64,000 nucleotides of DNA from the NCBI RefSeq assembly GCF_013404085.1, contig NZ_JABFHO010000001.1, positions 1,116,001 to 1,180,000 on the forward strand, read 5' to 3'. The notes beneath the pieces were generated by a model, which made no database searches, was not told the DNA's origin, and was given only the letters and a program-made list of their open reading frames with translations. Below are positions 1-56,507 of this stretch, one piece after another (positions within the stretch are counted from its first letter, which is position 1; each line of letters opens with the position of its first letter). This DNA is from Winogradskyella helgolandensis. Its GTDB lineage: Bacteria > Bacteroidota > Bacteroidia > Flavobacteriales > Flavobacteriaceae. A program made the position numbers and the translations under genes.

Positions 1-253
1 AATCGCTCATTTTCATGGTGGTATGCGCTTGATTAAAACCGTCTTTGTAGTGGACTGGTCTGTCATCGTAAAGCGGTACGGTTTTATCGCCAGCAATGTC
101 TTTGATGTAGTCTAAGTTCCATTTGGAATAGGCTGGCCAATCTTTAATGTACTGTTCTATCACCACGGGTTTTTGTGGTTTGAAGTAATGGGTTATAAAA
201 TCCTCTTTTGTAATGGTTTTTACGCGAGGAATATCTTGAAGGTTGAGTTTCAA
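1..253 (-). CDS. Cupin-like (JmjC/Cupin_8 type) domain protein, N-terminal part only
   Basis: The gene reads leftward and runs out of the window, so only about 84 N-terminal residues are visible. They include KPVVIEQYIKDWPAYSKW, the typical opening of bacterial cupin-like proteins related to FIH/JmjC oxygenases. The metal ligands (HxD...H) would lie outside the window and cannot be checked. An in-frame TAA lies two codons upstream of a TTG at 251-253 and no ATG falls between, so TTG is the chosen start. Family members are non-heme iron/2-oxoglutarate oxygenases, but no substrate can be proposed from this fragment. Confidence 0.7.
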   Translation of the reverse strand, partial: MKLNLQDIPRVKTITKEDFITHYFKPQKPVVIEQYIKDWPAYSKWNLDYIKDIAGDKTVPLYDDRPVHYKDGFNQAHTTMKMSD

Positions 254-303
254 ATGTTAGTAGCGTTTAGGATGCAAAGTTAAGGAAAGGTTTTAGATTT
301 AAT

Positions 304-330
304 GGATTCCTGCCTTCGCAGGAATGACAG
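304..330. repeat. Palindromic repeat copy (ATTCCTGC family)
   Basis: The core ATTCCTGC-CTTC-GCAGGAAT at 306-325 is a perfect 8-bp inverted repeat with a 4-nt loop, followed by GACAG. The bases just before it, GGTTTTAGATTTAAT, resemble the right end of the 145-bp unit at 596-740, so this is probably the right half of such a unit with its left half lost. It lies about 50 bp upstream of the cupin-like gene. Confidence 0.85.
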
Positions 331-380
331 TTGGTGTTTTTTTTAGGTGAGGTTGATGGTTGGTTCTTGATGGGGTTTTT

Positions 381-545
381 AAAAACTTCGTTTTGGTATC
401 TTCAATCAAAAATTATGTGACACCCCTAATGAGCTTCGCTCGGTAGCTTCAAAACAAAATGTATTTTGTTTCGCACTAATCCTCAAGGGGACAATCTACG
501 GATTAGACATTTTGGTTAGTACTAAAGTAGTTCTCGATTTGATGT
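381..545. other. Structured non-coding stretch between repeat copies
   Basis: No ORF is convincing here. The stretch holds a perfect inverted repeat, AAACAAAAT-GT-ATTTTGTTT at 452-471, a small GAGC-TTCG-CTC hairpin near 431-441, and a CCCCT / AGGGG pair at 423-427 and about 485-489 that could close around both. This could be a folded RNA or a remnant of a mobile element. I do not recognise a known family. Confidence 0.4.
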
Positions 546-595
546 TTGAGTTTATGATTGGTTCTTGATACGATTTTTGAAACTACGTATTGGTT

Positions 596-740
596 TGTCA
601 TTCCTGCGAAGGCAGGAATCCACTTTACTATTTCTCTTTTTCTTGTAGAGCTTTTGTATTAATTCAACAGGGACTTCTTAAAAATTAAATGGACTGAAAG
701 GTTTTTGATTTAATGGATTCCTGCTTTCGCAGGAATGACA
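596..740. repeat. 145-bp unit with inverted palindromic ends (unit 0)
   Basis: It begins TGTCATTCCTGCGAAGGCAGG and ends with the same element in the opposite orientation (GGATTCCTGCTTTCGCAGGA then ATGACA). Each end is a hairpin, and the two ends are inverted repeats of each other. The interior differs from the units at 3855-5392, yet the length equals that of three of them. The REPIN-like layout is seen directly; any mobility is inferred. Confidence 0.85.
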
Positions 741-833
741 GTTGGTGTTGTTTTTTAGGTAAGATTGAGGGTTGGTTCTCGATACGATTTTTTCATACTT
801 CAAAAATCACTCGAACTGACGTTTGTTTGGTTT

Positions 834-904
834 TATCATTCCTAAAAATTAAATGAAGTGAAACGTTTTATATCGAATAGATTCCTGCCTGCGCAGGAAA
901 GACC
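834..904. repeat. Truncated repeat unit, right half
   Basis: The stretch AAAAATTAAATG..ACTGAAA..GTTTT before the right-hand palindrome of unit 596-740 recurs here with a few changes, and is followed by ATTCCTGCCTGCGCAGGAAA at 881-900. The left palindrome is missing apart from TCATTCCT near 837. It ends about 12 bp from the stop codon of the gene at 917-1387. Confidence 0.75.
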
Positions 905-916
905 GTTGGTGTTGTT

Positions 917-1387
917 TTATAGCCATTTGGTGTCTCGTGATGTGGCGTCTAAGACATCGATGTTTAAGGCTGCAGCAATTTGTTTGGCCATATCAAAAGC
1001 CGTTTCTATATTGTCGGTTTCGTAGGCTTCAATTTTCTGATTGGTGTTATAGAATAGATTGACTTTGACCACAGTTTCCGTTACATTGGTGCTTGCTGTG
1101 GAGACCCAAACGCGTGTGGTTTGCGTGGTTTTAAATACGGAGACGTATTCTATTTGCGGGAAGTCTTTCCATTTTCCAAAAGTTAAACCAAATAGGTTGA
1201 TGGTGTTACGATATTTTTTAATGGTGAGGTCAATTTCAATGCCGTCGGTATAGAAAAAGAAGATACCTGCTCCTAAGAATAGGATACCAAAATAGGTATC
1301 GATACTCAGTATTCCTAATACGAAAAGACCAATACCGTAGATGAACTTTAGTTTTGGTATTGGTCTTTTGTAGCTAATTATATTCAA
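917..1387 (-). CDS. Small membrane protein of unknown function, third gene of the flotillin operon
   Basis: This is a 156-residue protein with two closely spaced hydrophobic segments at roughly residues 14-30 and 32-47, then a soluble domain. I do not recognise a named family. Its C-terminal part (YVSVF, VNLFYNTN, YETDN, LNIDVLDAT, KW) matches in order the protein encoded at 9300-9848 (YVSVF, VNLWYDNN, YEEDN, LNIDLLDAT, KW), so the two are paralogues. It starts 18 bp after the flotillin stop codon on the same strand and is probably co-transcribed. Function unknown; membrane association is inferred from the hydrophobic segments. Confidence 0.8.
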   Translation of the reverse strand: MNIISYKRPIPKLKFIYGIGLFVLGILSIDTYFGILFLGAGIFFFYTDGIEIDLTIKKYRNTINLFGLTFGKWKDFPQIEYVSVFKTTQTTRVWVSTASTNVTETVVKVNLFYNTNQKIEAYETDNIETAFDMAKQIAAALNIDVLDATSRDTKWL

Positions 1388-1405
1388 GAAAAGATGATTT
1401 TAATA

Positions 1406-2830
1406 TTATAACTTATCAATAGTAGCGTCATCTGCTTCAATGGTCTTTTTGTCTTTTCCTTTTAGGTATTCTGGTAAATCCATACCAGCCATATTAAACA
1501 TTTCTTGTAAAGGTGGTACTGATTTGTACATGCCAGATAAGAAGTTAGCCGTTGACGATTTTCCGTCTTCTCCACCGCTTCCATTATCCCAAACGGTTAC
1601 TTTATCAATTTTAATATTCTTAATCGCTTCCGATTGAATTTTCACCAATTCTGGTAATTTGTCTGCAATTAATAATAATACGGCATCTCTACTATTGTTA
1701 CCAGCCGCTTTTACAATTTGCTCCATACCCGCAGCTTGCTTGGTTAAGATTTCAAATTGTCCTTGTGCTTCGGCTTGTGCTTTAAATAATATGGCATCTG
1801 CTTCCCCTTTAGCACGTCTTCTAATACGTTCTGCATCTGCTTCGGCATCGATTTCAACTTTACGTTTATCAATTTCAGCTGGAATAATAACATCGGCCAT
1901 TTGAGATGAACGTTCACGTTCCGCTCTAGCTGTTTCTGCGATTTGCTCTGCCGCATATGATTCTGCTAAGGCGTTTGCAGACTGTACTTTTTCAGAGGCA
2001 TTTGCCACACGTTCTGCTTCCGCTTCACGTTGACGACGTAATGAATCTGAATTTGCAACGGCTATTTTCGCGGTGTTTTCACCTTCTACAGCTTGTGCAT
2101 TGGCTGCTGCTACTTGGGTTCTTTCATCTTGTACTGCATTTGCTTCACCAATAGATCCATCTCTGGTTTTCTCTGCAACCGATTTACGTGCTGCGTTAAT
2201 AGCATGTGCTGCCGCTTCTTTACCAAGAGCTTCGATATAACCAGACTCATCAACGATATCTGTAATGTTTACGTTGATTAGTTTTAGACCTACTTTCTTT
2301 AGTTCCGTTTCAACAGATTCTGAAATATTCGTTAAGAATTTATCTCTGTCATTATTAATTTCTTCAATATCCATTGAAGCCACCACTAAACGTAATTGTC
2401 CGAAAATAATTTCTTGTGCTAAATCTTGGATTTCATTTTGACCTAATCCTAGCAAACGCTCTGCTGCGTTTTGCATAATACCAGGTTCAGTAGAGACACC
2501 AATAGTAAAACGCGATGGCACATTGACACGAATGTTTTGTTTAGATAAGGCATTAACCAAATTTACTTCTATAGAGATAGGAGTTAATTCTAAGAATTCA
2601 TAATCTTGAATTACTGGCATTATAAAAGCCGCTCCACCATGAATACATTTAGCCGATTGTCCGCCACCAACTTTCCCATAGACGACTAAAATCCTGTCTG
2701 ATGGACAACGTTTGTAGCGTTTTATTAAAATAATTAAGGTGAGTACAACGAATAGGGCTACAAAAATTAGTAGCATTGGTCCGCCAAGGCTTTCCGCAGT
2801 AAAATTGTTTTGAATGGTTAGTAAATTCAT
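1406..2830 (-). CDS. Flotillin-like SPFH-domain membrane scaffold protein
   Basis: This 474-residue protein starts with a short extracytoplasmic stretch and one membrane helix (about residues 18-37), followed by an SPFH/band 7 domain to about 200. A long Ala/Glu/Arg-rich coiled coil follows (about 205-370, with repeated EAEAERV and AEADAERIRRRAKGEA heptads). The C-terminal region is proline- and methionine-containing and ends in a charged tail. Length and order match bacterial FloT/YqiK-type flotillins, which oligomerise in the inner membrane and organise microdomains. The upstream neighbour is an NfeD-like gene, the usual partner, 48 bp away on the same strand. Family assignment is firm; cargo and physiological role are not visible. 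Confidence 0.93.
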   Translation of the reverse strand: MNLLTIQNNFTAESLGGPMLLIFVALFVVLTLIILIKRYKRCPSDRILVVYGKVGGGQSAKCIHGGAAFIMPVIQDYEFLELTPISIEVNLVNALSKQNIRVNVPSRFTIGVSTEPGIMQNAAERLLGLGQNEIQDLAQEIIFGQLRLVVASMDIEEINNDRDKFLTNISESVETELKKVGLKLINVNITDIVDESGYIEALGKEAAAHAINAARKSVAEKTRDGSIGEANAVQDERTQVAAANAQAVEGENTAKIAVANSDSLRRQREAEAERVANASEKVQSANALAESYAAEQIAETARAERERSSQMADVIIPAEIDKRKVEIDAEADAERIRRRAKGEADAILFKAQAEAQGQFEILTKQAAGMEQIVKAAGNNSRDAVLLLIADKLPELVKIQSEAIKNIKIDKVTVWDNGSGGEDGKSSTANFLSGMYKSVPPLQEMFNMAGMDLPEYLKGKDKKTIEADDATIDKL

Positions 2831-2878
2831 GTGCTAATAGATTAGATTGGTTAATTATAGAATTAGTATTTGTTTGAA

Positions 2879-3517
2879 TTAATTTTCGATAAATCGGTCT
2901 TTCCCCTGAGGCAGTTCTTCATTATTACCTCTGGAAGCTTCAATGGGTTTGCGCGTTTGGTCAACGATGAGAATGCCGTTAGAAGTCACATCAACAACTT
3001 TTATGATTGTGCCTGTTTTTAAGGTTGTTAATGAATCGGTAAGTGCATCTAATTCTCTCATAGAACCTTGAACACTAACGGTTACTTTTCCCATTTTAGA
3101 ACGGTCAGAACCAATAGGTAAATAGACTTCACCAACAGCATCGAGCGCATTTTTATAATTTAAGGTGCCACTATCGGAAAGTTTACTAATGAAGTAGAAT
3201 AGTGCCGCCATAATAGCCATCATTAACAATCCACAAATCACTGAAATGATTATGGTTAATGGTGTTGAAAGTCCGGCGTCTATACAAGCAATACCACTCC
3301 AGCCAAAAATAGTAAAGAAGCCAACGAGATTTTTAAAGGATATGAATTGAAATCCTGCTCCATCAGCATCAATATCTGAGTCTAGGTCTCCAATATCATC
3401 CGCATCTCCGCCTACAAAAGCCAAAACCATAACGATGGAAAAAATGAGCGAACCTATAATAGCAACTAACCAATACATTTTGGATAGAAATTCTAAATTT
3501 GAAAACCATTCTGCCAT
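2879..3517 (-). CDS. NfeD/YuaF-like membrane partner of flotillin
   Basis: This 212-residue protein has three membrane segments (about 13-35, 62-82 and 87-110) separated by an Asp-rich stretch (GGDADDIGDLDSDIDADG), then a C-terminal OB-fold-like domain (about 125-195, with VGEVYLP...GKVTVSVQGSMRELDAL). This is the short NfeD form without a ClpP-like protease domain, as in Bacillus YuaF. It is the first gene of a leftward operon with the flotillin and a small membrane protein. NfeD proteins are thought to stabilise or localise the flotillin oligomer; that role is carried over from the family. Confidence 0.88.
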   Translation of the reverse strand: MAEWFSNLEFLSKMYWLVAIIGSLIFSIVMVLAFVGGDADDIGDLDSDIDADGAGFQFISFKNLVGFFTIFGWSGIACIDAGLSTPLTIIISVICGLLMMAIMAALFYFISKLSDSGTLNYKNALDAVGEVYLPIGSDRSKMGKVTVSVQGSMRELDALTDSLTTLKTGTIIKVVDVTSNGILIVDQTRKPIEASRGNNEELPQGKDRFIEN

Positions 3518-3854
3518 AAGATGCCGTTTAAATTTGAGTTAATAAAGATACGACCATTGTAAGACTATACAATCTTATTTTGAAAGTAAATTGGTCTCAT
3601 CAATACCATCTTTAAAGACTTTTAAAATCTTTAGTTTTTAATGACCTTAGGTTTGAACATAAACGATTCAAAGGTTGGAATGTCAATTGTATGTTGATGG
3701 TTTTTGAAGTACGGTCGTTTTTATACTTTTGGAGCCTCAAAATAGGGTTGAGTTTGGACCACTTTCAATATATAAGTAGTCATTGAAGGAATTTTGTTAC
3801 AAGGAATTTGGGAAATATTTTTTTGTGGGTTAGAAATGTGGGGATGGTGGGTGT
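3518..3854. other. Intergenic stretch upstream of the NfeD-like gene
   Basis: No gene or clear hairpin is seen. The leftward promoter of the nfeD-flotillin operon should lie here, but I found no perfect box on that strand. A rightward TACTTTTG at 3724-3731 matches the Bacteroidota -7 consensus but has no gene downstream of it. Confidence 0.5.
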
Positions 3855-3995
3855 TGTCATTCCTGCGTAGGCAGGAATCTGTTTGGTGTTATTAATGTTG
3901 ATTTAGTTCTAAAAAGAATTAGAGGATTTGAGAAATATAGTAATTGTTTTAAAGGTGTAGTGTTGTTGTGGATTCCTGCCTGCGCAGGAATGACA
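3855..3995. repeat. 141-bp unit with inverted palindromic ends (unit 1)
   Basis: The left end is TGTCATTCCTGCGTAGGCAG followed by GAATCT. The right end is the same palindrome inverted (GGATTCCTGCCTGCGCAGGA, then ATGACA). The interior GTTTGGTGTTATTAATGTTG and the stretch AGTAATTGTTTTAAAGGTGT are shared with units at 4664, 4925 and 5248. It is four bases shorter than those. Confidence 0.9.
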
Positions 3996-4040
3996 GAGTG
4001 TGTTGTTGTTTGTTGTGGGTTATCTGGATTTATCTAGAGA

Positions 4041-4130
4041 TTTGTCTGCTTTCGCAGGGATGAGAGTATTTTGTGGATTGGTTTAATGATGAAGTTTTGT
4101 TGTGGGTTCCTGCTTGCGCAGGAAAGACAA
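4041..4130. repeat. Degenerate palindrome copies and a shared 50-bp spacer
   Basis: A decayed palindrome copy (CTGCTTTCGCAGGGATGAGA, about 4046-4065) is followed by GTATTTTGTGGATTGGTTTA and ATGATGAAGTTT. The same order recurs at 5122-5172. A near-intact copy, GGGTTCCTGCTTGCGCAGGA, lies at 4104-4123. The spacers between units are therefore repeated too, which points to duplication of larger blocks. Confidence 0.75.
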
Positions 4131-4217
4131 AGTTCGTTGTTATTTGTAATGGCTTAGCTTGGATGTACTTGAAGGTTTGTCTGCTTTGGCAAGAATGACA
4201 AAGTGTGTTGTTATTTG

Positions 4218-4526
4218 TTATTGAAAATAAGTCCAGTCTTTGGATAAATCTTTCCAATTAGGATTCTCTTCTTCAATAAGATCTATCTTCCATTGACGTT
4301 TCCATTTTTTCATGTTCTTTTCTCTTTTAATGGCGTCATTGATATACTGATAGGTTTCAAAATATATTAGTCGATCCAGTCCATATTTTTTTGTAAATCC
4401 ATCGACTAACTTGTTTTTATGTTCAAACATTCTGCGCTCTAAATCGTTAGTAACACCAATGTATAAGGTACCGTTATACTTGTTAGATAGTATGTAGAGA
4501 TAATATTGATGTATGTTCTTGTACAT
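4218..4526 (-). CDS. Stand-alone GIY-YIG endonuclease-fold protein
   Basis: This 102-residue protein is a single GIY-YIG domain. YYLYILSNKYNGTLYIGVTN at residues 8-27 carries the two signature strands (Y-L-Y and Y-I-G), with ERR at 30-32 supplying the catalytic arginine region and a conserved-type EHKNKLVDGFTKKYGLDRL next. Length is normal for the YhbQ/URI-like group of small nuclease-fold proteins, and no core residue looks lost. It has no operon partner. It sits inside a field of palindromic repeats: units at 3855-3995 and 4664-5392 flank it, and a decayed palindrome at about 4543-4573 lies just before its start. DNA hairpin cleavage is an attractive role but is inferred from fold and context only. 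Confidence 0.9.
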   Translation of the reverse strand: MYKNIHQYYLYILSNKYNGTLYIGVTNDLERRMFEHKNKLVDGFTKKYGLDRLIYFETYQYINDAIKREKNMKKWKRQWKIDLIEEENPNWKDLSKDWTYFQ

Positions 4527-4542
4527 TCTTGTAATTGGTATA

Positions 4543-4573
4543 TCATCGTTTCCTGATTTTATAGGAATGATGA
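4543..4573. repeat. Decayed palindrome immediately upstream of the GIY-YIG gene
   Basis: TCATCGTTTCCT and AGGAATGATGA form an imperfect inverted repeat around GATTTTAT, 17 bp upstream of the nuclease start codon. It resembles the outer part (TCATTCCT / AGGAATGA) of the flanking palindromes, extended outward. It could be an old copy, a nuclease target or an autoregulatory site. Confidence 0.5.
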
Positions 4574-4663
4574 GGTGTAATTATTTAAAATATGTTGTGG
4601 AATGTTTTTAAAGTTATGAATTTTAGTGCATTAGTTTTTAATAAATAAGTGTTTTTTGTGTTC

Positions 4664-4808
4664 TGTCATTCCTGCGTAGGCAGGAATCTGTTTGGTGTTA
4701 TTAATGTTGATTTGATTAAGTATTATGAAGAATTAAGTGTGTTGAGCACATAGTAATTGTTTTAAGGGTAATGTGCTGTAGTGGGTTCCTGCTTGCGCAG
4801 GAAAGACA
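4664..4808. repeat. 145-bp unit with inverted palindromic ends (unit 2)
   Basis: The left palindrome is identical to that of the unit at 3855. The right end is GGGTTCCTGCTTGCGCAGGA then AAGACA, with two changes from consensus. The interior TGATTAAGTATTATGAAGAA is shared with the unit at 5248. Confidence 0.9.
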
Positions 4809-4924
4809 AAGTTCGTTGTTATTTGTAACGGCTTAGCTTGGATGTAGTTGAAGGTTTTTCTGCTTTGGCTGGGATGATAGAGCGTGTTGCATTTAGATTA
4901 TACTATTCATTGTTTTTAGTCTTC

Positions 4925-5069
4925 TGTCATTCCTGCGTAGGCAGGAATCTACTTTGTATAGTTGATGTTTGTTTGATTAAATATTTTGAAGAATTGAGAG
5001 GGTTGAACACCGAGTAATTGTTTTAAAGGTATTGTGCTGTTGTGGATTCCTGCCTACGCAGGAATGACA
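4925..5069. repeat. 145-bp unit with inverted palindromic ends (unit 3)
   Basis: Both ends are near-perfect (TGTCATTCCTGCGTAGGCAG ... CCTGCCTACGCAGGAATGAC). The interior keeps TTTGATTAAATATTTTGAAG and GAGTAATTGTTTTAAAGGTA. It is 116 bp from the previous unit. Confidence 0.9.
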
Positions 5070-5247
5070 AAGCGTGTTGTTTTTTATTGTGGCTTCAGTT
5101 GTGTGTATTTGAAGGTTTGCCTGCTTTCGCAGGGATGAGAGTATTTTGTGGATTGGTTTAATGATGAAGTTTGTGGGTTCCTGCTTTGGTTGGAATGACA
5201 AAGCGTGTTGAATTTAGATTATAGTATCAATTGTTTTTAGTGGGTGC

Positions 5248-5392
5248 TGTAATTCCTGCGTAGGCAGGAATCTACTTAGTGTTATTAATGTTGGTTTGAT
5301 TAAGTATTATGAAGAATTGAGTGGGTTGAACACGGAGTAATTCTTTTAAAGGTGTCTTGTTGTTGTGGATTCCTGCCTGCGCAGGAATGACA
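5248..5392. repeat. 145-bp unit with inverted palindromic ends (unit 4)
   Basis: The left end TGTAATTCCTGCGTAGGCAG has one change from the other copies; the right end CCTGCCTGCGCAGGAATGAC matches them. It finishes 5 bp before the stop codon of the leftward TonB receptor gene, so its hairpin may serve as that gene's transcript end. Between this unit and unit 3 lie two decayed copies near 5117-5140 and 5175-5199. Confidence 0.9.
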
Positions 5393-5397
5393 AATTA

Positions 5398-7230
5398 TTA
5401 AAAGAATTTGTAACGCATACCAAATAATACGTTGCTTGGTGGCATTGGAGTAAAGCCTGATTCTATATAGTCGGCATTAAAAATGTTGTTTGCGGTTATG
5501 GACAATTCAACTTGTTTTAGTTGGAACATAATTGAGGCATCCCAAACGTTATAGGTTTGTCCTGTGGTGCGTTCGGCATATTTGTAAATGATGCTTTGGC
5601 TCACGTTTTTGAGTAGTTGTGTGCTTAATCTGGTGGTGTAATGATGTTTTAAGGTATTTAAGGCATAACGTGATAGTTCTTCGTTTTGCTCTAAAATATC
5701 ATCGTCTAAATAGGCATATCCAAACGCTAGGGTTTGGTTGAAGCTGTTTATTTCAAAATTATAGGCCACGTCAACTTCTAGTCCTTTAGTATTGACTTCT
5801 GCAATGTTGGTGGCTGTAAAGATTTCTTCAACCGTGTTTGGTCTAACGTAATCTATTAAGTTTTTAGCATCGCGATTAAAAACGGATAGGCTTGCTCTAA
5901 ATTTTTGGTTGTTGAATTTAATCCCGATTTCTTGCGCAAAGGCTTCTTCGGGTTCTAAATCGGCGTTCCCATTGGTTCTTGGGTCTGTGTAATATAAATC
6001 GGTGTAGGTTGGTATTCTGTATGTGAATCCAATATTTCCATAAGCTTTTAGGTTGTTGGTGATATCGAAGCCTACATCTAATCCTGGGAATCCGTTAAAT
6101 TTAAAGTCCGAAAAATAGGTGACGGCAACACCAGGTGTAATGTCTAATCGGTTATCTATAAACTGAAAACGATGCTCTAAAAATACAGTGGTCATAAAAC
6201 GGTTACGATTCCCTAAGTTGTTACTTTTCAAATAGGTTTTAGAGAGGTCTATTCCAAATCCGGTGATTCCTAATTTAGACGTGTAGGAGGCATTGGCTTC
6301 GGCACCAATTTTATTAGACAGGTGGAAGTTTCTGAAAAATTCAGGTTCAAAACGTTTTAGAAGGAACATATCTTGGTTGCGTTTCCAATAGATACGCGGT
6401 TGAATTTTTAATTTTTCAGATTGAAACTTTGTGGTGAAGGCGATTAAACTGTTTTGGGTTTCTTCATATTCGTTATAAGCTTGATTGGTGGTGTAAAAAT
6501 TTTCGGCACCAAACTTACGTTCAGAAAATGTAGCAATCATTTCGATGGGTTGGTCTTTTTTATTGAAGACACTTTTTAGAAAGTAATTAGAATTATCATA
6601 ATCTGAATTATTGCGATAGCCTTCAGAGGTCATTTTGCCCACATGAAGGATGTGTGTTGAGTTTTTTAATTCATTACCAACAGTTACAGAACCATTAAGT
6701 TGACCAAAGGAACCGGTTTCAAGATTTGCAGAAACGGTATCGTCTAAACTCGATTTTGTTACAATATTAATCGCACCTGTAAAGGCGTTTTGACCAAAAA
6801 CACGTGCAGCAGGTCCTTTTATGACTTCTATGCGTTGAATAACTTCTAAAGGAAGCGCAGCATTTAAGGTATGGTGACCAGTTTGTGCATCGTCCATTTT
6901 GATACCATCGATTAATAAGAGGGTTTGATCGAAACCACCGCCTCTGATGAATAAATCGGCTTGACTGCCGCCCGTACCACGACGTCTAATATCGACTCCT
7001 GCGATTTGCTGTAACACATCTGAAATGGTCACAGCCGCACTACTTTTAATATCTGCTGAAGTGATTATGTTTATGGTTCTAGAATTTTCTTTGAAGGGTA
7101 GGTCGATACGTGTTGAGGTAATAATCACCTCTTTTAAAGAATCTGTTTTAATGATGGGCTCTGCTTCTTGTGCGTTGATTTGACAAGTGGCCATTAAACT
7201 GCATATAATGAGGGCGACTATAGTTTTCAT
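5398..7230 (-). CDS. TonB-dependent outer-membrane receptor, BtuB/FepA-like
   Basis: This 610-residue protein has a signal peptide (MKTIVALIICSLMATCQINA), a TonB-box-like stretch (LKEVIITSTR, about 32-41), a plug domain (about 45-160, with DVLQQIAGVDIRRRG, ADLFIRGGGFDQTLLLIDG and IEVIKGPAARVFGQNAF) and a C-terminal barrel ending in Phe. There is no carboxypeptidase-like N-terminal domain. At about 600 residues it is short for this class, similar to BtuB. Substrate cannot be read from sequence; a metal chelate or cofactor is likely. It is transcribed divergently from a MocR-type regulator with a 98-bp shared intergenic region, so that regulator may control it. Confidence 0.9.
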   Translation of the reverse strand: MKTIVALIICSLMATCQINAQEAEPIIKTDSLKEVIITSTRIDLPFKENSRTINIITSADIKSSAAVTISDVLQQIAGVDIRRRGTGGSQADLFIRGGGFDQTLLLIDGIKMDDAQTGHHTLNAALPLEVIQRIEVIKGPAARVFGQNAFTGAINIVTKSSLDDTVSANLETGSFGQLNGSVTVGNELKNSTHILHVGKMTSEGYRNNSDYDNSNYFLKSVFNKKDQPIEMIATFSERKFGAENFYTTNQAYNEYEETQNSLIAFTTKFQSEKLKIQPRIYWKRNQDMFLLKRFEPEFFRNFHLSNKIGAEANASYTSKLGITGFGIDLSKTYLKSNNLGNRNRFMTTVFLEHRFQFIDNRLDITPGVAVTYFSDFKFNGFPGLDVGFDITNNLKAYGNIGFTYRIPTYTDLYYTDPRTNGNADLEPEEAFAQEIGIKFNNQKFRASLSVFNRDAKNLIDYVRPNTVEEIFTATNIAEVNTKGLEVDVAYNFEINSFNQTLAFGYAYLDDDILEQNEELSRYALNTLKHHYTTRLSTQLLKNVSQSIIYKYAERTTGQTYNVWDASIMFQLKQVELSITANNIFNADYIESGFTPMPPSNVLFGMRYKFF

Positions 7231-7295
7231 TTATTTAGGTTTTGTAAACTTTGTTATTGTGATGTCTAATGTAAACACTACAAAAGTCGTAACTT

Positions 7296-7341
7296 TCCGG
7301 ACGATTAAAGTAGTCCAGTTTTAAAACAATGAATAGTCCGG
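7296..7341. promoter_or_regulatory. Candidate operator array for the divergent MocR-type regulator
   Basis: TAGTCCAG at 7311-7318 and TAGTCCGG at 7334-7341 are direct repeats 23 bp apart, about two helical turns. TCCGGAC at 7296-7302 is a related site in inverted sense. MocR regulators commonly bind direct repeats near their own start. The second repeat overlaps codons 2-5 of the regulator, which would suit autorepression. Confidence 0.45.
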
Positions 7342-8825
7342 TTAGTCAAATTCTAAAACAGCTTATCACATTCGATAAAACTATTGTGCAACCTGTGTAT
7401 GTTCAAGTTGCGCAACAAATCGTCAATGCCATACAACGTGGTTATTTAGACAAAGGTAGTAAGTTACCTGGAACTCGCGTTTTTAGTCAGTTGTTGGGCA
7501 TTCATCGTAACACGGCTGTAGCGATTTATGAAGAATTAGCATTACAAGGTTGGGTAGATATTATAGCCAATAAAGGCACTTTTGTTTTAGTACCAGAAGC
7601 ATCAACGGCAAAAATTAAGGCCACAACACAGCATCTACATCAAGCGTATGCGTATCCAGAAGTTGCAGGTTTTCCATTTGAAAAATCATTTCATTTGGCA
7701 TCAACAACACAAGAGACCACCGCTAAATATTATATTAATGATGGAAAACCCGATTTGCGTTTACATCCTGTGCACCAATTTTCGAGATGGTATAGTGCAG
7801 CTATGAAACGAAAGCCATTAATTACTAAATGGAATAGAACGTCTGCTTTAATACCATCGGTTTTTAGTACGCAACTTTGTAATTATTTAAACGCCACACG
7901 AGGCTTTCATATAAAGCCCACTAATTTAATAAACACGCGTAGCACAGAAATGAGTTTATTCATTGTTTCTCAGTTATTAATCAAACAAAATGATTTGGTG
8001 TTAGTAGGGCAGTTGAGTAATTACGCTGCCAACATGATTTTTCAGGAAGCAGGCGCGACTATTAGAACGATTCCTGTAGATGATGAAGGTTTGGATGTGG
8101 ATTATATAAAAACGCATTTTGTAAAGAAAAGCATTCGATGTGTGTATATCTGTGCGCATAGAGATTATCCGACAACGGTGACGTTGAGCGCTAAACGCCG
8201 TTTACAATTGTTGGAACTCGCCAAGACTTACGGGTTTGCTATTATAGAAGACGATTATGATTATGATTTTCAATTTGAAGGTTCGGCCATGTTACCTATG
8301 GCAAGTGCTGATGCTGGAGGTATGGTTATTTATCTCGGTAAGTTAGGGCAATCGTTATTTCCTAGTTTTCATACTGGGTTTGTGGTGGCTCCCGGAAATT
8401 TTATTTCTGAAGCTAAAAATTACTTGCAGCTATTAGATCAGCAAGGAGATTTAATACAAGAACAAATGCTTGCCGAACTCATTTCTGAAGGGGAAATTTA
8501 TAGATTGAAGAAAAAAAATATTGTGACTTATAAGCAACGTCTCGATAGTTTGTGTCTGTATTTGAATGCGTATTTTGAAGGTATTGTCACTTGGGAAAAA
8601 CCTTTGGGTGGTTTAGCGTTATGGTTACGGTTTATAGATAATATTTCGTTAGTTAAATTAGCTGAAGAAGCTGAGAAGCTCGATTTGTTTCTGCCAAAAA
8701 CTATTTTATATCAAGATAAAACCACTTGTGCTATTCGTTTTGGTTTTGGCCATTTAAATGAAGCCGAACTCGAAATCGTGATTAAAAAGCTGAAACGTGC
8801 TTATAATAAAGTGACTAATTTTTGA
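7329..8825 (+). CDS. MocR-family GntR/aminotransferase-fold regulator with altered PLP site
   Basis: This 498-residue protein has an N-terminal GntR winged helix-turn-helix (about 15-85: GSKLPGTRVFSQLLGIHRNT, VAIYEELALQGWV) and a C-terminal fold-type I aminotransferase domain (about 130-490). The PLP-binding EDDYDYDF is present near residue 310. Where family members have the Schiff-base lysine (typical pattern Y-x-G-T-F-S-K-T-L-F-P), this protein reads YLGKLGQSLFPSFHTGF: Gln341 replaces the lysine, and His replaces the usual Arg a few residues on. Lys338 lies three residues earlier. It may bind PLP weakly, non-covalently or not at all. Divergent from the TonB receptor gene, the likely target. 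The last 11 bp overlap the convergent gene at 8815-9231. Confidence 0.9.
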   Translation: MNSPVSQILKQLITFDKTIVQPVYVQVAQQIVNAIQRGYLDKGSKLPGTRVFSQLLGIHRNTAVAIYEELALQGWVDIIANKGTFVLVPEASTAKIKATTQHLHQAYAYPEVAGFPFEKSFHLASTTQETTAKYYINDGKPDLRLHPVHQFSRWYSAAMKRKPLITKWNRTSALIPSVFSTQLCNYLNATRGFHIKPTNLINTRSTEMSLFIVSQLLIKQNDLVLVGQLSNYAANMIFQEAGATIRTIPVDDEGLDVDYIKTHFVKKSIRCVYICAHRDYPTTVTLSAKRRLQLLELAKTYGFAIIEDDYDYDFQFEGSAMLPMASADAGGMVIYLGKLGQSLFPSFHTGFVVAPGNFISEAKNYLQLLDQQGDLIQEQMLAELISEGEIYRLKKKNIVTYKQRLDSLCLYLNAYFEGIVTWEKPLGGLALWLRFIDNISLVKLAEEAEKLDLFLPKTILYQDKTTCAIRFGFGHLNEAELEIVIKKLKRAYNKVTNF

Positions 8826-53323: not shown

Positions 53324-54199
53324 TTATTTTCTGTTTCGTTCAATAAAAGTGATAATAGCTTTTGCAATATTTTTGTGAGTTGCAGCTTCTATTCCTTCGA
53401 GTCCAGGAGTAGAGTTTACCTCTAATAATAAAGGCCCTCTTGATGATTGCAACATATCTACACCACAAACAGGTAGCTTTAAAACCTTAGCAGCTTTCAT
53501 TGCTAAATTAAGTTCGTCTTCATCTAATTTTATGATATTGGCAGAACCTCCACGATGTAAATTAGATCTAAATTCTCCTTCTTTACCTTGTCGTTTCATG
53601 GCTCCAACCACTTGGCCATCCACAACTAAAGCTCTTAAATCAGCACCTTTTGCTTCTTTAATAAACTCTTGTACAATAACTCTTGCTTGCAACCCATTAA
53701 AAGCTTCTAATACAGATTCAGCTGCATTTTTTGTTTCAGCTAAAACCACACCAAGTCCTTGTGTGCCTTCTAGTAATTTTATAATTACAGGTGTACCACC
53801 AACATAGCTAATTACTTCTTCTACGTCTCTAGAATAATTAGTGAATACCGTTTTAGGCATGCCAATTCCAGCTTTACTTAAGCGTTGTAAGCTTCTCAAT
53901 TTATCGCGAGAACGGGTTATGGCATCAGATGGAGCAATGGTAAAAACTCCCATTTCTTCAAATTGTCTAACCACAGCACAACCGTAAAACGTAATTGATG
54001 CTCCAATTCTTGGAATTATAGCATCTACATAATCCAAATAGCGATCCTTATAGTAAATGGTTGGTTTTTCCTTTTCAATAATAATATCGCATTTTAATGG
54101 GTCTATGATTTCAACGGAATGACCTCTTTTTTGAGCTTCATCAACTAGTCGTTGAGTAGAATAGAGTTCTGCATTACGTGAAAGAATTACTATGTTCAT
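53324..54199 (-). CDS. rimK: RimK-family ATP-grasp alpha-L-glutamate ligase
   Basis: This 291-residue protein begins [20 protein letters not shown]. The ATP-grasp core has [20 protein letters not shown] (about 136-155), [20 protein letters not shown] (about 193-212), [22 protein letters not shown] at the metal site (about 252-273) and no RimK-type C-terminal extension beyond about 290. In E. coli RimK adds glutamates to ribosomal protein S6. It overlaps the upstream protease-like gene by 4 bp (ATGA), so the two are translationally coupled. The true target in this organism is unknown. Confidence 0.92.
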
Positions 54200-54713: not shown

Positions 54714-56507
54714 ATGCCAGAATCTACCTTAGACATACAGATAAAAACGCTTCCTCATCAACCTGGTGTCTATCAGTATTTTGATGCAGACGAACATTTA
54801 ATCTACGTCGGAAAAGCTAAAGATATAAAAAAACGGGTGAGTAGTTATTTTACCAAGCATCACGACTATGGTAAAACCCGCGTTTTGGTTAAAAATATCG
54901 CTTCGGTAAAACATATTGTTGTAGAGACCGAAAATGATGCCTTGCTGCTTGAGAATAACCTCATTAAGAAATATAAACCTAAGTACAACGTATTATTAAA
55001 GGATGATAAATCGTACCCGTGGATTTGTATTAAAAAGGAGCGTTTTCCAAGAGTATTTCCCACACGTCGTATTATTAAGGATGGTTCAGAATATTTTGGA
55101 CCTTACACGAGCATGAAAACGGTGAAAACACTTTTGGGACTCATAAAAGGATTGTACCAATTACGAACGTGTAATTATGATTTGTCCGAATCTAAAATTG
55201 AAGCCGGAAAATATAAGGTATGCTTAGAATACCATTTAGGGAACTGTAAAGGTCCTTGTGAAGGTTATGAATCCGAAGAAGAATATCAGGCTAATATAGT
55301 TGCTATAAGAGAAATTCTAAAAGGAAATTTTAAAGATTCCTTACAACAATTTAGAATTCAAATGAGGCATCATGCGGAAGCGATGCAGTTTGAAGATGCT
55401 CAGAAAATAAAAGAAAAGTTAGAGGTTTTAGAAAATTACCAAGCAAAATCTACTATTGTAAATCCTAAGATTAGTAATGTAGATGTGTTTTCAATAGTTA
55501 GTGATGAATCGTATGCTTATGTCAATTTTTTACAATTAAGCTATGGCTCTATTATTAGGTCTCATACATTAGAATTGAAGAAAAAACTACAAGAAACAGA
55601 TTTACAATTATTAGAACTAGCCATTACCGAAATTAGACAACGTTTCAATTCAAATTCAAAAGAAATTTATGTACCTTTTAAAGTGAATTTAGGAGACGAT
55701 ATTAAAGTAACAATACCTAAGCTTGGTGATAAAAAGAACATTCTAGATTTATCAATTAGAAATGCAAAGTATTTCAGAATGGATAAATTTAAACAGGTAA
55801 AACTTGTAGATCCAGATCGGCATGCCAACAGAATTATGGCACAAATGAAAGCCGATTTGCGTTTAAGTGAAGAGCCAAGACATATTGAGTGTTTTGATAA
55901 CTCTAATATTCAAGGTACAAACCCAGTGGCTGCTTGTGTGGTTTTTAAAAATGGAAAACCGAGTAAAAAGGATTACCGTCATTTTAATATTAAAACTGTA
56001 GTTGGTCCGGATGATTTTGCCTCTATGGAAGAAGTGGTTTATAGACGTTACAAACGTTTGTTAGAGGAAGACCAACCCCTACCGCAACTTATTATTATAG
56101 ATGGAGGAAAAGGACAGTTGTCGTCCTCATTAAAAAGTTTGAATGTCTTAGGGTTACGTGGAAAAATCGCTATTATTGGTATAGCAAAACGTTTGGAAGA
56201 ATTGTTTTACCCAGATGATCCAATTCCATTATATTTAGATAAAAAAAGTGAGACCTTAAAAATCATACAACAATTACGAAATGAAGCACATCGCTTCGGA
56301 ATAGAACATCATAGAAATCGAAGAAGTAAAGGAGCTTTGACCACGGAGTTAGAAAATATAGCAGGAGTAGGAGAGCAAACCATTGTAGATTTAATGAAAC
56401 AATTTAAAACTGTAAAACGCATTGCTAATGCCAAGTTAGATGAGCTTGAAGCAGTTGTAGGAGTTTCTAGAGCAAATAAAGTATATAATTATTACCATAA
56501 AGAATAA
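54714..56507 (+). CDS. uvrC: Excinuclease ABC subunit C
   Basis: This 597-residue protein has an N-terminal GIY-YIG nuclease domain (about 12-95: QPGVYQYFDADEHLIYVGKA), a UVR domain (about 205-240: AMQFEDAQKIKEKLEVLENY), an RNase H-like endonuclease domain (about 380-540, with ECFDNSNIQGTNPVAACVVF and IIDGGKGQLSS) and a C-terminal helix-hairpin-helix (about 545-597). It makes both incisions in nucleotide excision repair with UvrA/UvrB. All domains are intact. The patatin-like gene follows 23 bp downstream. Confidence 0.97.
   Translation: MPESTLDIQIKTLPHQPGVYQYFDADEHLIYVGKAKDIKKRVSSYFTKHHDYGKTRVLVKNIASVKHIVVETENDALLLENNLIKKYKPKYNVLLKDDKSYPWICIKKERFPRVFPTRRIIKDGSEYFGPYTSMKTVKTLLGLIKGLYQLRTCNYDLSESKIEAGKYKVCLEYHLGNCKGPCEGYESEEEYQANIVAIREILKGNFKDSLQQFRIQMRHHAEAMQFEDAQKIKEKLEVLENYQAKSTIVNPKISNVDVFSIVSDESYAYVNFLQLSYGSIIRSHTLELKKKLQETDLQLLELAITEIRQRFNSNSKEIYVPFKVNLGDDIKVTIPKLGDKKNILDLSIRNAKYFRMDKFKQVKLVDPDRHANRIMAQMKADLRLSEEPRHIECFDNSNIQGTNPVAACVVFKNGKPSKKDYRHFNIKTVVGPDDFASMEEVVYRRYKRLLEEDQPLPQLIIIDGGKGQLSSSLKSLNVLGLRGKIAIIGIAKRLEELFYPDDPIPLYLDKKSETLKIIQQLRNEAHRFGIEHHRNRRSKGALTTELENIAGVGEQTIVDLMKQFKTVKRIANAKLDELEAVVGVSRANKVYNYYHKE

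Follow-up and report, generated by a model that had tools for sequence, protein, structure and literature searches.

Known repeat systems and the palindromes of the window

In the 2013 survey of CGTC-tagged repetitive extragenic palindromes (REPs), the CGTC-1 family is characterized by a TGTC/CGTC tag, an 8-bp stem that starts with A-T pairs, a 4-base loop, a short C-C/T-A tail and mostly head-to-head dimers, with Bacteroidetes among its hosts, and the enzyme that makes or moves the repeats, if any, is left open (PMC3733652). The Neisseria intergenic mosaic elements (NIMEs) consist of a 50–150 bp core between inverted 20-bp dRS3 repeats and form arrays of 200–2700 bp (PMC9778887, PMC3898611). 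Here we analyzed a stretch of 64,000 nucleotides from Winogradskyella helgolandensis (contig NZ_JABFHO010000001.1, positions 1,116,001 to 1,180,000; hereafter the window), in which a solitary gene for a GIY-YIG nuclease lies among inverted pairs of 20-bp palindromes. With a probability of roughly two in three, we read this locus as the expanded copy of a mobile cassette, i.e., a solitary GIY-YIG gene within an outward-facing REP pair that would be its own recognition sequence, a reading that includes cutting, exchange and later duplication.

Chenal et al. (2025, Nature Communications) are said to have described site-specific single-stranded nucleases (Ssn) of the GIY-YIG superfamily, of which the Neisseria enzyme reportedly cleaves single strands at a repeat and influences transformation, with homologues cutting corresponding sequences. 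The window nuclease is likewise a small solitary GIY-YIG protein with a putative repeated genomic target that differs between homologues, and a solitary gene with its cognate repeat, reportedly the mark of the Ssn kind, was found at the loci of relatives. A link between nuclease and repeat has probably already been published for Neisseria, and the Ssn paper may in part cover the cassette anatomy described below. The parts of the kind of system represented in the window are already known, and the original prediction, whose author knew of no description of such a system, was wrong for those parts, as both NIME/dRS3 arrays and CGTC REPs have been published (PMC9778887, PMC3898611, PMC3733652). 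Among the literature matches listed, titles and the beginnings of abstracts held no tie of such a nuclease to CGTC repeats, nor did the available portions of PMC1564403, PMC12306157, PMC9778887, PMC3898611 and PMC6006769 link the two; the cassette anatomy (a gene enclosed, across phyla, by a pair of CGTC repeats whose tags face outward, and fixed operon sites that hold different cassettes) was not found among the matches listed either.

When up to 3 mismatches are allowed, the window has 16 sites for the palindrome ATTCCTGC-N4-GCAGGAAT, of which 10 are exact. Fifteen fall within the first 5.4 kb, and the lone distant site at 53391 is probably due to chance; 100 dinucleotide shuffles of the window gave a mean of 0.22 sites and a maximum of 2. 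The 1.9-kb stretch around the GIY-YIG gene, which is bounded by a TonB-dependent receptor gene and the gene of a conserved 212-aa protein, holds 11 of these sites (7 exact), and the whole 4.6-Mb Winogradskyella genome (G000) has 40 exact palindromes, compared with 0 for a reversed-pattern control. A DNA hairpin is predicted for positions 3855-3883 (-7.7 kcal/mol, z -5.4), and an Rfam scan of positions 1-8000 gave no match at gathering scores.

Going by their sequence, the window palindromes fit the CGTC-tagged REPs of the type of Di Nocera et al. 2013. Their 8-bp stem, which likewise begins with A-T pairs, and their 4-base loop fall within the ranges of the CGTC superfamily (8-9 bp, loop 4-5), and the CGTC/TGTC tag stands next to the stem: over 12 unlinked loci, TGTC was found outside the upstream palindrome at 0.67-0.83 per base and GACA outside the downstream palindrome at 0.92-1.00 per base, and within G000 the tag reads TGTC at many but not all sites. 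On the inner side of the upstream palindrome follows the tail, mostly CCA in the superfamily and here C, C/T, A, with shares of 0.92, 0.50 and 0.75 for the commonest base. Head-to-head pairs predominate in G000 as well, where 56 of the 61 sites (up to 3 mismatches) in the stretches read were typed (the other five are three sites with 3 mismatches and two on the second contig), and neighbours less than 300 bp apart formed 9 outward-tagged pairs vs. 2 inward ones. While CGTC-1 repeats apparently lack a dedicated transposase according to PMC3733652, the repeats here enclose a GIY-YIG gene.

The anatomy of 20-bp inverted palindromes, a 50-150 bp interior and an arrangement in arrays is shared with NIME/dRS3 elements, and with 145-bp units, an interior of ~97 bp between palindromes spaced 117 bp apart, and an array of 1.5 kb the window falls within the size range of such elements (70-200 bp). 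The Nf1-type dRS3 ATTCCCRCCTRCGCGGRAAK has the CTRC loop in common with the window palindrome and differs mainly by one paired base change, whereas the dRS3 motif ATTCCC-N8-GGGAAT is ATTCCT-N8-AGGAAT in the window; the window repeats also belong to another phylum and have far fewer copies. The REPtrons formed by REPINs (inverted pairs of REP hairpins) and RAYTs (REP-associated tyrosine transposases), as presented in PMC6006769, resemble the locus in that an enzyme gene is flanked by the REP type it processes and enzyme and repeat coevolve, but they use an HUH/Y1 enzyme and a GTAG tag in place of a GIY-YIG hydrolase and a CGTC tag, and they are said not to move as a unit, as the present cassette appears to do. 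A REPIN in the strict sense was rejected, since no Y1 enzyme lies beside the repeats and the tag is TGTC/GACA, not GTAG. From the REPIN-like architecture proposed originally, the inverted hairpin pairs and the association of nuclease and palindrome stood, while an independent spread of the units did not, these being local duplicates.

Palindrome and nuclease types in relatives

Two sets of homologous loci were compared. The first consisted of 118 loci of the family and genus taken from high-ranking matches (58 supplied by the search and 60 picked by hand further down the lists), and the second of 80 loci ranging from Flavobacteriia to Bradyrhizobium, Deltaproteobacteria, Planctomycetes, Cloacimonadota, and Parcubacteria, many of them on contigs of metagenome-assembled genomes, where single assignments may be wrong; nine genes are shared, leaving 189 distinct loci. 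All hairpin counts required perfect stems of at least 7 bp and miss decayed palindromes. Among the 116 of 118 loci of the first set with enough flank, 76 had a hairpin within 70 bp upstream of the gene, 75 had one within 80 bp downstream, and 53 had both, as compared with 0.75, 0.75, and 0.05 in shuffled flanks and with 6, 2, and 1 of 115 in segments 500 bp away. Pairs with the same stem within 300 bp on both sides were found at 49 of the 118 loci and 0 times in each of 5 shuffles. The second set gave 59 loci with a hairpin within 90 bp upstream, 64 downstream, and 48 on both sides (shuffles: 0.85, 1.05, and 0; 600 bp away: 4, 6, and 0 of 70), and at least one palindrome within 90 bp was present at 167 of the 189 distinct loci. 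Recognizable tags pointed outward rather than inward both upstream (84 vs. 6) and downstream (92 vs. 6), and the 100 loci with palindromes on both sides comprised 63 outward-outward, 1 inward-inward, and 36 mixed or untagged cases, thus the gene is typically enclosed in a head-to-head CGTC pair. An association of palindromes with GIY-YIG nucleases of this kind, far beyond shuffled controls and in many phyla, is supported by these counts. As a separate observation, one genome (G174) contains 17 matches to the window nuclease in 3 Mb, three of which lie within 7 kb on a single contig.

The palindrome stem varies by nuclease type (ATTCCTGC, ATTCCGCA, ATTCTGCG, ATGCTGAA, ATTTCCGC, AATGCGCA, and more). 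The pairing of the two was tested on the 189 loci minus 10 (stops or a short frame) and minus 20 (no palindrome found), with sites considered the same when flanks were homologous on both sides and different when flank homology was lacking; as the pairs are not independent, the shares given here are contrasts and not probabilities. At the same site, the palindrome arm was common in 0 of 94 pairs with a nuclease identity below 55% and in 67 of 77 pairs with an identity of at least 80%. Between different sites, the arm was common in 209/225 pairs at ≥ 80% identity, 777/1550 at 65-80%, 994/3523 at 55-65%, 1081/6185 at 45-55%, and 32/695 below 45%, and the 986 arm-sharing pairs among the 1775 with at least 65% identity compare with a permuted mean of 464 (sd 50, max 619, 200 permutations). 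Judged from these comparisons, the palindrome goes with the nuclease and not with the chromosomal site, and because nuclease and palindrome types pair, the palindrome is very likely what the protein recognizes. This pairing names the GIY-YIG nuclease as a candidate enzyme of CGTC repeats and predicts the target of many homologues from sequence alone; if it is as close as the data suggest, the family would also offer many nucleases whose site specificity can be predicted.

The least probable of the readings weighed here is that an HUH/Y1 transposase of the RAYT type, encoded elsewhere, moves the palindromes as in true REPINs, with the GIY-YIG gene as a passenger. A single borderline Y1_Tnp match was obtained genome-wide, in a frame that also encodes a coproporphyrinogen oxidase domain, but no hairpin lies within ~270 bp of this Y1-like gene, and no ATTCCTGC-type site (up to 4 mismatches) was present nearer than ~3.9 kb in the 11 kb read. 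The tags are TGTC/CGTC and not GTAG, the palindrome type tracks the GIY-YIG type, and PMC3733652 reports no RAYT gene flanked by CGTC units, all of which argues against this route. The frame itself (G000:C1 959171-960634; L056:4172-5635, minus strand) is 487 aa long and combines a Y1-transposase-like N-terminal part, borderline for PF01797 in the genome search and missing from the Pfam scan at E 1e-3, with a full coproporphyrinogen III oxidase domain.

It is also very improbable that the palindromes are host hairpins acting on transcription or mRNA between genes, next to which small nuclease genes merely land. The location of the examined cassettes between genes (at trpB-trpA between co-directional ones) would agree with such a role, while the outward tags, the type-specific pairing and the two-sided enclosure do not, and flanks 500-600 bp away are mostly devoid of hairpins.

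Cassettes at fixed and unrelated sites

At the trpB-trpA junction, 30 of 56 trpB loci were examined, 10 of which had no adjacent trpA in the stretch, while 20 (all Winogradskyella) contained both genes. Five of these 20 junctions are 1-3 bp long and seven measure 84-99 bp without a palindrome; two hold a ATTCCTGC cassette, three have palindromes (one set decayed) without a nuclease, and in a further three the cassette has palindromes of the ATGCTGAA and ACCCTGAA types, and its nuclease shares 52-55% identity with the nearest query. In other genera, nine loci harbor a further type with ATTTCCGC or ATTCCCTC palindromes, and one locus has a broken gene. The junction supplies natural target swaps at one site. 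Several cassettes also have in common a site between genes of a phenylacetate-type operon and another next to a dut-like gene (gene names taken from reading the neighboring proteins, partly checked with Pfam). The cassette-free 84-99 bp spacers at trpB-trpA (G222, G238, G199, G241; L189, L190, L193, L201) contain, by eye, an apparent imperfect inverted repeat of the GATGTGAGA / TCTCATATCTC type, unrelated to the CGTC palindromes.

The edges of the cassettes were assessed by comparing unrelated sites. In the clearest pair (L102 vs. L104), the match spans from TGTC to GACA and no further, in L123 and L178 it ends at untagged palindromes, and over the 12 unlinked loci conservation drops outside the tags. 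The site occupied in the window carries the nuclease in G000, G249, G227, and G201, as well as in G252 as judged by contig ends, and lacks it in others, with G231 having a palindrome pair alone at the start of the array. When G000 is compared with three genomes, identity at third codon positions amounts to 71-75% in the nuclease gene and to 56-67% in the flanking genes (nuclease vs. receptor: p = 0.009 and 0.003 for two genomes, from rounded counts); this higher identity suggests transfer, although constraint could be an alternative. Contigs G252:C17, G228:C206, and G212:C57 end a few hundred bases from the receptor gene, as expected for a repeat array.

Different cassettes together with empty junctions at one site, the GIY-YIG domain itself, and a third-position identity above that of the flanks would also suit a free-standing homing endonuclease cassette, which would cut palindromes or junctions in cassette-free alleles and spread by gene conversion. 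T4 Seg enzymes spread in such a homing manner. We consider this unlikely, as 12 of the 15 cassette-free trpB-trpA junctions have no palindrome, and as homing enzymes, according to PMC1564403, cut uninterrupted targets only, while the presumed target here is intact on both sides of the gene.

In the mechanism that we propose, the solitary GIY-YIG gene and the enclosing outward-tagged CGTC-type REP pair would constitute a mobile cassette, whose nuclease would bind and cut its own palindrome, most likely in single-stranded form, either as a hairpin or as a strand. Single-stranded cutting appears to be the likeliest activity because Ssn reportedly acts on single strands at a repeat. Cassettes may pass between strains via recombination in flanking genes, cutting at the palindromes may bias this exchange and seed spare REP copies, and the 145-bp units of the window would stem from later local duplication between repeats. 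What the comparisons of loci demonstrate is how the cassette is built, that nuclease and palindrome pair by type, that cassettes end at or close to the tags, and that a single fixed intergenic site can hold different cassettes.

The original prediction supposed that the nuclease helps to spread or maintain the units, and copy numbers bear on this. With matches to the window nuclease at E ≤ 1e-44 taken as close homologues, exact sites had a median of 25 in the 15 congeneric genomes with a homologue and of 7 in the 44 without (59 genomes besides G000, p = 7e-5), and in 198 genomes of the family the medians were 6.5 with (n = 18) vs. 0 without (n = 180, p = 4e-8), p-values that ignore relatedness and include the sites flanking the genes; within the family, 2 of the 18 genomes with a homologue have no site, and 68 of the 180 without one have at least one. 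The ATGCTGAA palindrome was likewise commoner in 11 genomes with a nuclease flanked by it, chosen because a nuclease with that flank was seen, than in 49 others (p = 4e-4), a contrast that weakened after the removal of two sites per genome (p = 0.011), and its counts were uncorrelated with those of ATTCCTGC (rho -0.06).

Several observations weigh against the reading as a mobile cassette, beginning with the neglect of relatedness and the inclusion of flanking sites in the copy-number p-values. Many repeat-rich genomes have no close homologue (up to 56 sites, in G215). In eight of these, with 16-28 sites, all 29 small-frame GIY-YIG matches were inspected: in seven, none of the small GIY-YIG matches lies within ~300 bp of a ATTCCTGC palindrome (up to 3 mismatches), in the eighth (G233) such a palindrome lies 131 bp from a broken gene, and a search of G210 (16 sites) with the window protein gave no match at E 1e-3. 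A second cassette of G000, in a paa-type operon, is flanked by another palindrome type that has just its own two copies genome-wide, and a solitary GIY-YIG gene at C1:903051 of the same genome has no perfect palindrome, with an imperfect one (7 of 8 pairs) just upstream. No palindrome was present within 90 bp at 22 of the 189 loci (missing sequence accounts for 3 of these at most), and tags could not be recognized for 45 palindromes upstream and 34 downstream. The 94 same-site pairs of low identity all come from two sites (trpB-trpA and the phenylacetate-type operon), and some cassettes (L036, L109, L165) have different palindromes on their two sides, which may reflect a recognition looser than one sequence per enzyme or recombinant cassettes.

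Repeat-rich genomes without an intact matching nuclease imply that an intact nuclease is not needed for the repeats to persist, and the unamplified palindromes of the second G000 cassette imply that its presence is not sufficient for amplification. A strict dependence of the repeats on an intact nuclease was therefore rejected. Lost nucleases would explain the exceptions, and some of the repeat-rich genomes without a close homologue have a more distant nuclease with ATTCCTGC flanks. The proposal of spread or maintenance by the nuclease thus keeps the higher copy number alongside a close homologue and loses the need for an intact enzyme to keep the repeats; the outcome named at the outset as speaking against it, repeats equally abundant in relatives lacking the nuclease, was partly observed, with seven of the eight genomes checked showing no matching nuclease and G233 having a broken gene.

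The same exceptions, the unamplified palindromes of the G000 cassette, and units made by local duplication would all agree with a role in transformation control alone, in which the nuclease, as Ssn reportedly does, would cut incoming single-stranded DNA at palindromes and shape import, while the repeats multiply by ordinary recombination or duplication. Copy number going with a close homologue speaks against it, and cassettes at unrelated sites with edges at the tags require some insertion route. We regard this alternative as a real but doubtful possibility, nearly as good on present data as the reading as a mobile cassette. Extending the mobile-cassette reading, GIY-YIG nucleases of this kind might be the missing enzyme of the whole CGTC REP superfamily and might form, with an outward-tagged REP pair, a mobile cassette across phyla that enters operons between genes and is replaced there by other cassettes, with dispersed CGTC REPs, including NIME/dRS3, as its non-autonomous by-products and the whole as a hydrolytic counterpart of the RAYT REPtron; this wider claim is tentative and falls somewhat short of an even chance.

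Duplicated units and other features of the window

The features of the window are listed in Table 1. All four units have the places and lengths that had been predicted, their interiors are indeed homologous (pairwise identity of 79-88% over the full length, palindromes included), and the GIY-YIG gene between units 1 and 2 is real. The palindrome claimed for every unit end is exact over 20 bp at seven of the eight ends, while the right end of unit 2 reads GTTCCTGC-N4-GCAGGAAA (2 mismatches) and the left tag of unit 4 is TGTA in place of TGTC; the list of copies was incomplete, with further ones at 306, 600, 717, 881, and 4106 and decayed ones at 5117 and 5177. The left palindrome of unit 2 is the nearest exact one upstream of the GIY-YIG gene. 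Homology between units continues past their ends (4857-5071 vs. 5178-5394, 217 bp, 86%; 3855-4132 vs. 4925-5203, 285 bp, 81%), thus the units multiplied as parts of larger local duplications, and an independent REPIN-like insertion of the four units was ruled out.

Table 1 Coordinates of repeats and genes in the window
Feature	Position	Strand	Remarks
Single palindrome	306..325	.	Beyond the SPFH gene
Further head-to-head pair	600..736	.	Palindromes 600-619 and 717-736, spacing 117 bp
Single palindrome	881..900	.	1 mismatch
SPFH/Band 7 protein, next gene	1406..2830	-	
Flanking gene, 212 aa	2879..3517	-	Without Pfam match; conserved at the site
Unit 1	3855..3995	.	141 bp; head-to-head pair of CGTC-type REPs
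Half-unit palindrome	4106..4125	.	2 mismatches; nearest palindrome downstream of the nuclease gene; tag GACA outward
GIY-YIG nuclease gene	4218..4526	-	102 aa; PF01541 E 4.3e-15
Unit 2	4664..4808	.	145 bp; head-to-head pair; right palindrome with 2 mismatches
Unit 3	4925..5069	.	145 bp; head-to-head pair
Decayed palindrome	5117..5136	.	3 mismatches
Decayed palindrome	5177..5196	.	3 mismatches
Unit 4	5248..5392	.	145 bp; inverted pair, left tag TGTA
TonB-dependent receptor gene, flanking	5398..7230	-	Marker for the same site in relatives

A genome-wide peak at the 145-bp spacing, proposed as a check of the original prediction, did not appear: four of the nine outward pairs of G000 are spaced 113-117, all within the first 5.4 kb of the window, and the remaining five are spaced 42, 46, 46, 69, and 230, which ruled out such a spacing for the genome as a whole. 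The further pair at 600..736 is 61-64% like units 1-4, and G210 and G200 have a unit of spacing 116-117 in the same region. Elsewhere in G000 (C1 1602110-1614615, L054), four TGTC-tagged palindromes and one with a changed tag, share one orientation and, along with a pair, run through and around the phenylacetate-type operon that also holds the second, differently flanked GIY-YIG cassette.

Residues Y11, Y22, R32, H36, E69, and N88 of the nuclease are invariant across 17 aligned sequences, the Tyr, Arg, and Glu of PF01541 among them presumably having catalytic roles. The NCBIfam scan of the protein gave a sub-threshold match to an intron endonuclease only, and sequence comparison with solved structures returned just weak matches to UPF0213 proteins and two further matches with E-values above 0.1. 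A second GIY-YIG domain of the window, at 54762-54989 (G000:C1 1170762-1170989), belongs to a 597-aa frame that, by its length, is probably UvrC. Positions 393-517 contain a different intergenic repeat, which recurs at 88-91% identity in G210 and G200, close to their receptor and SPFH genes, and as a shorter copy (85%) in G234.

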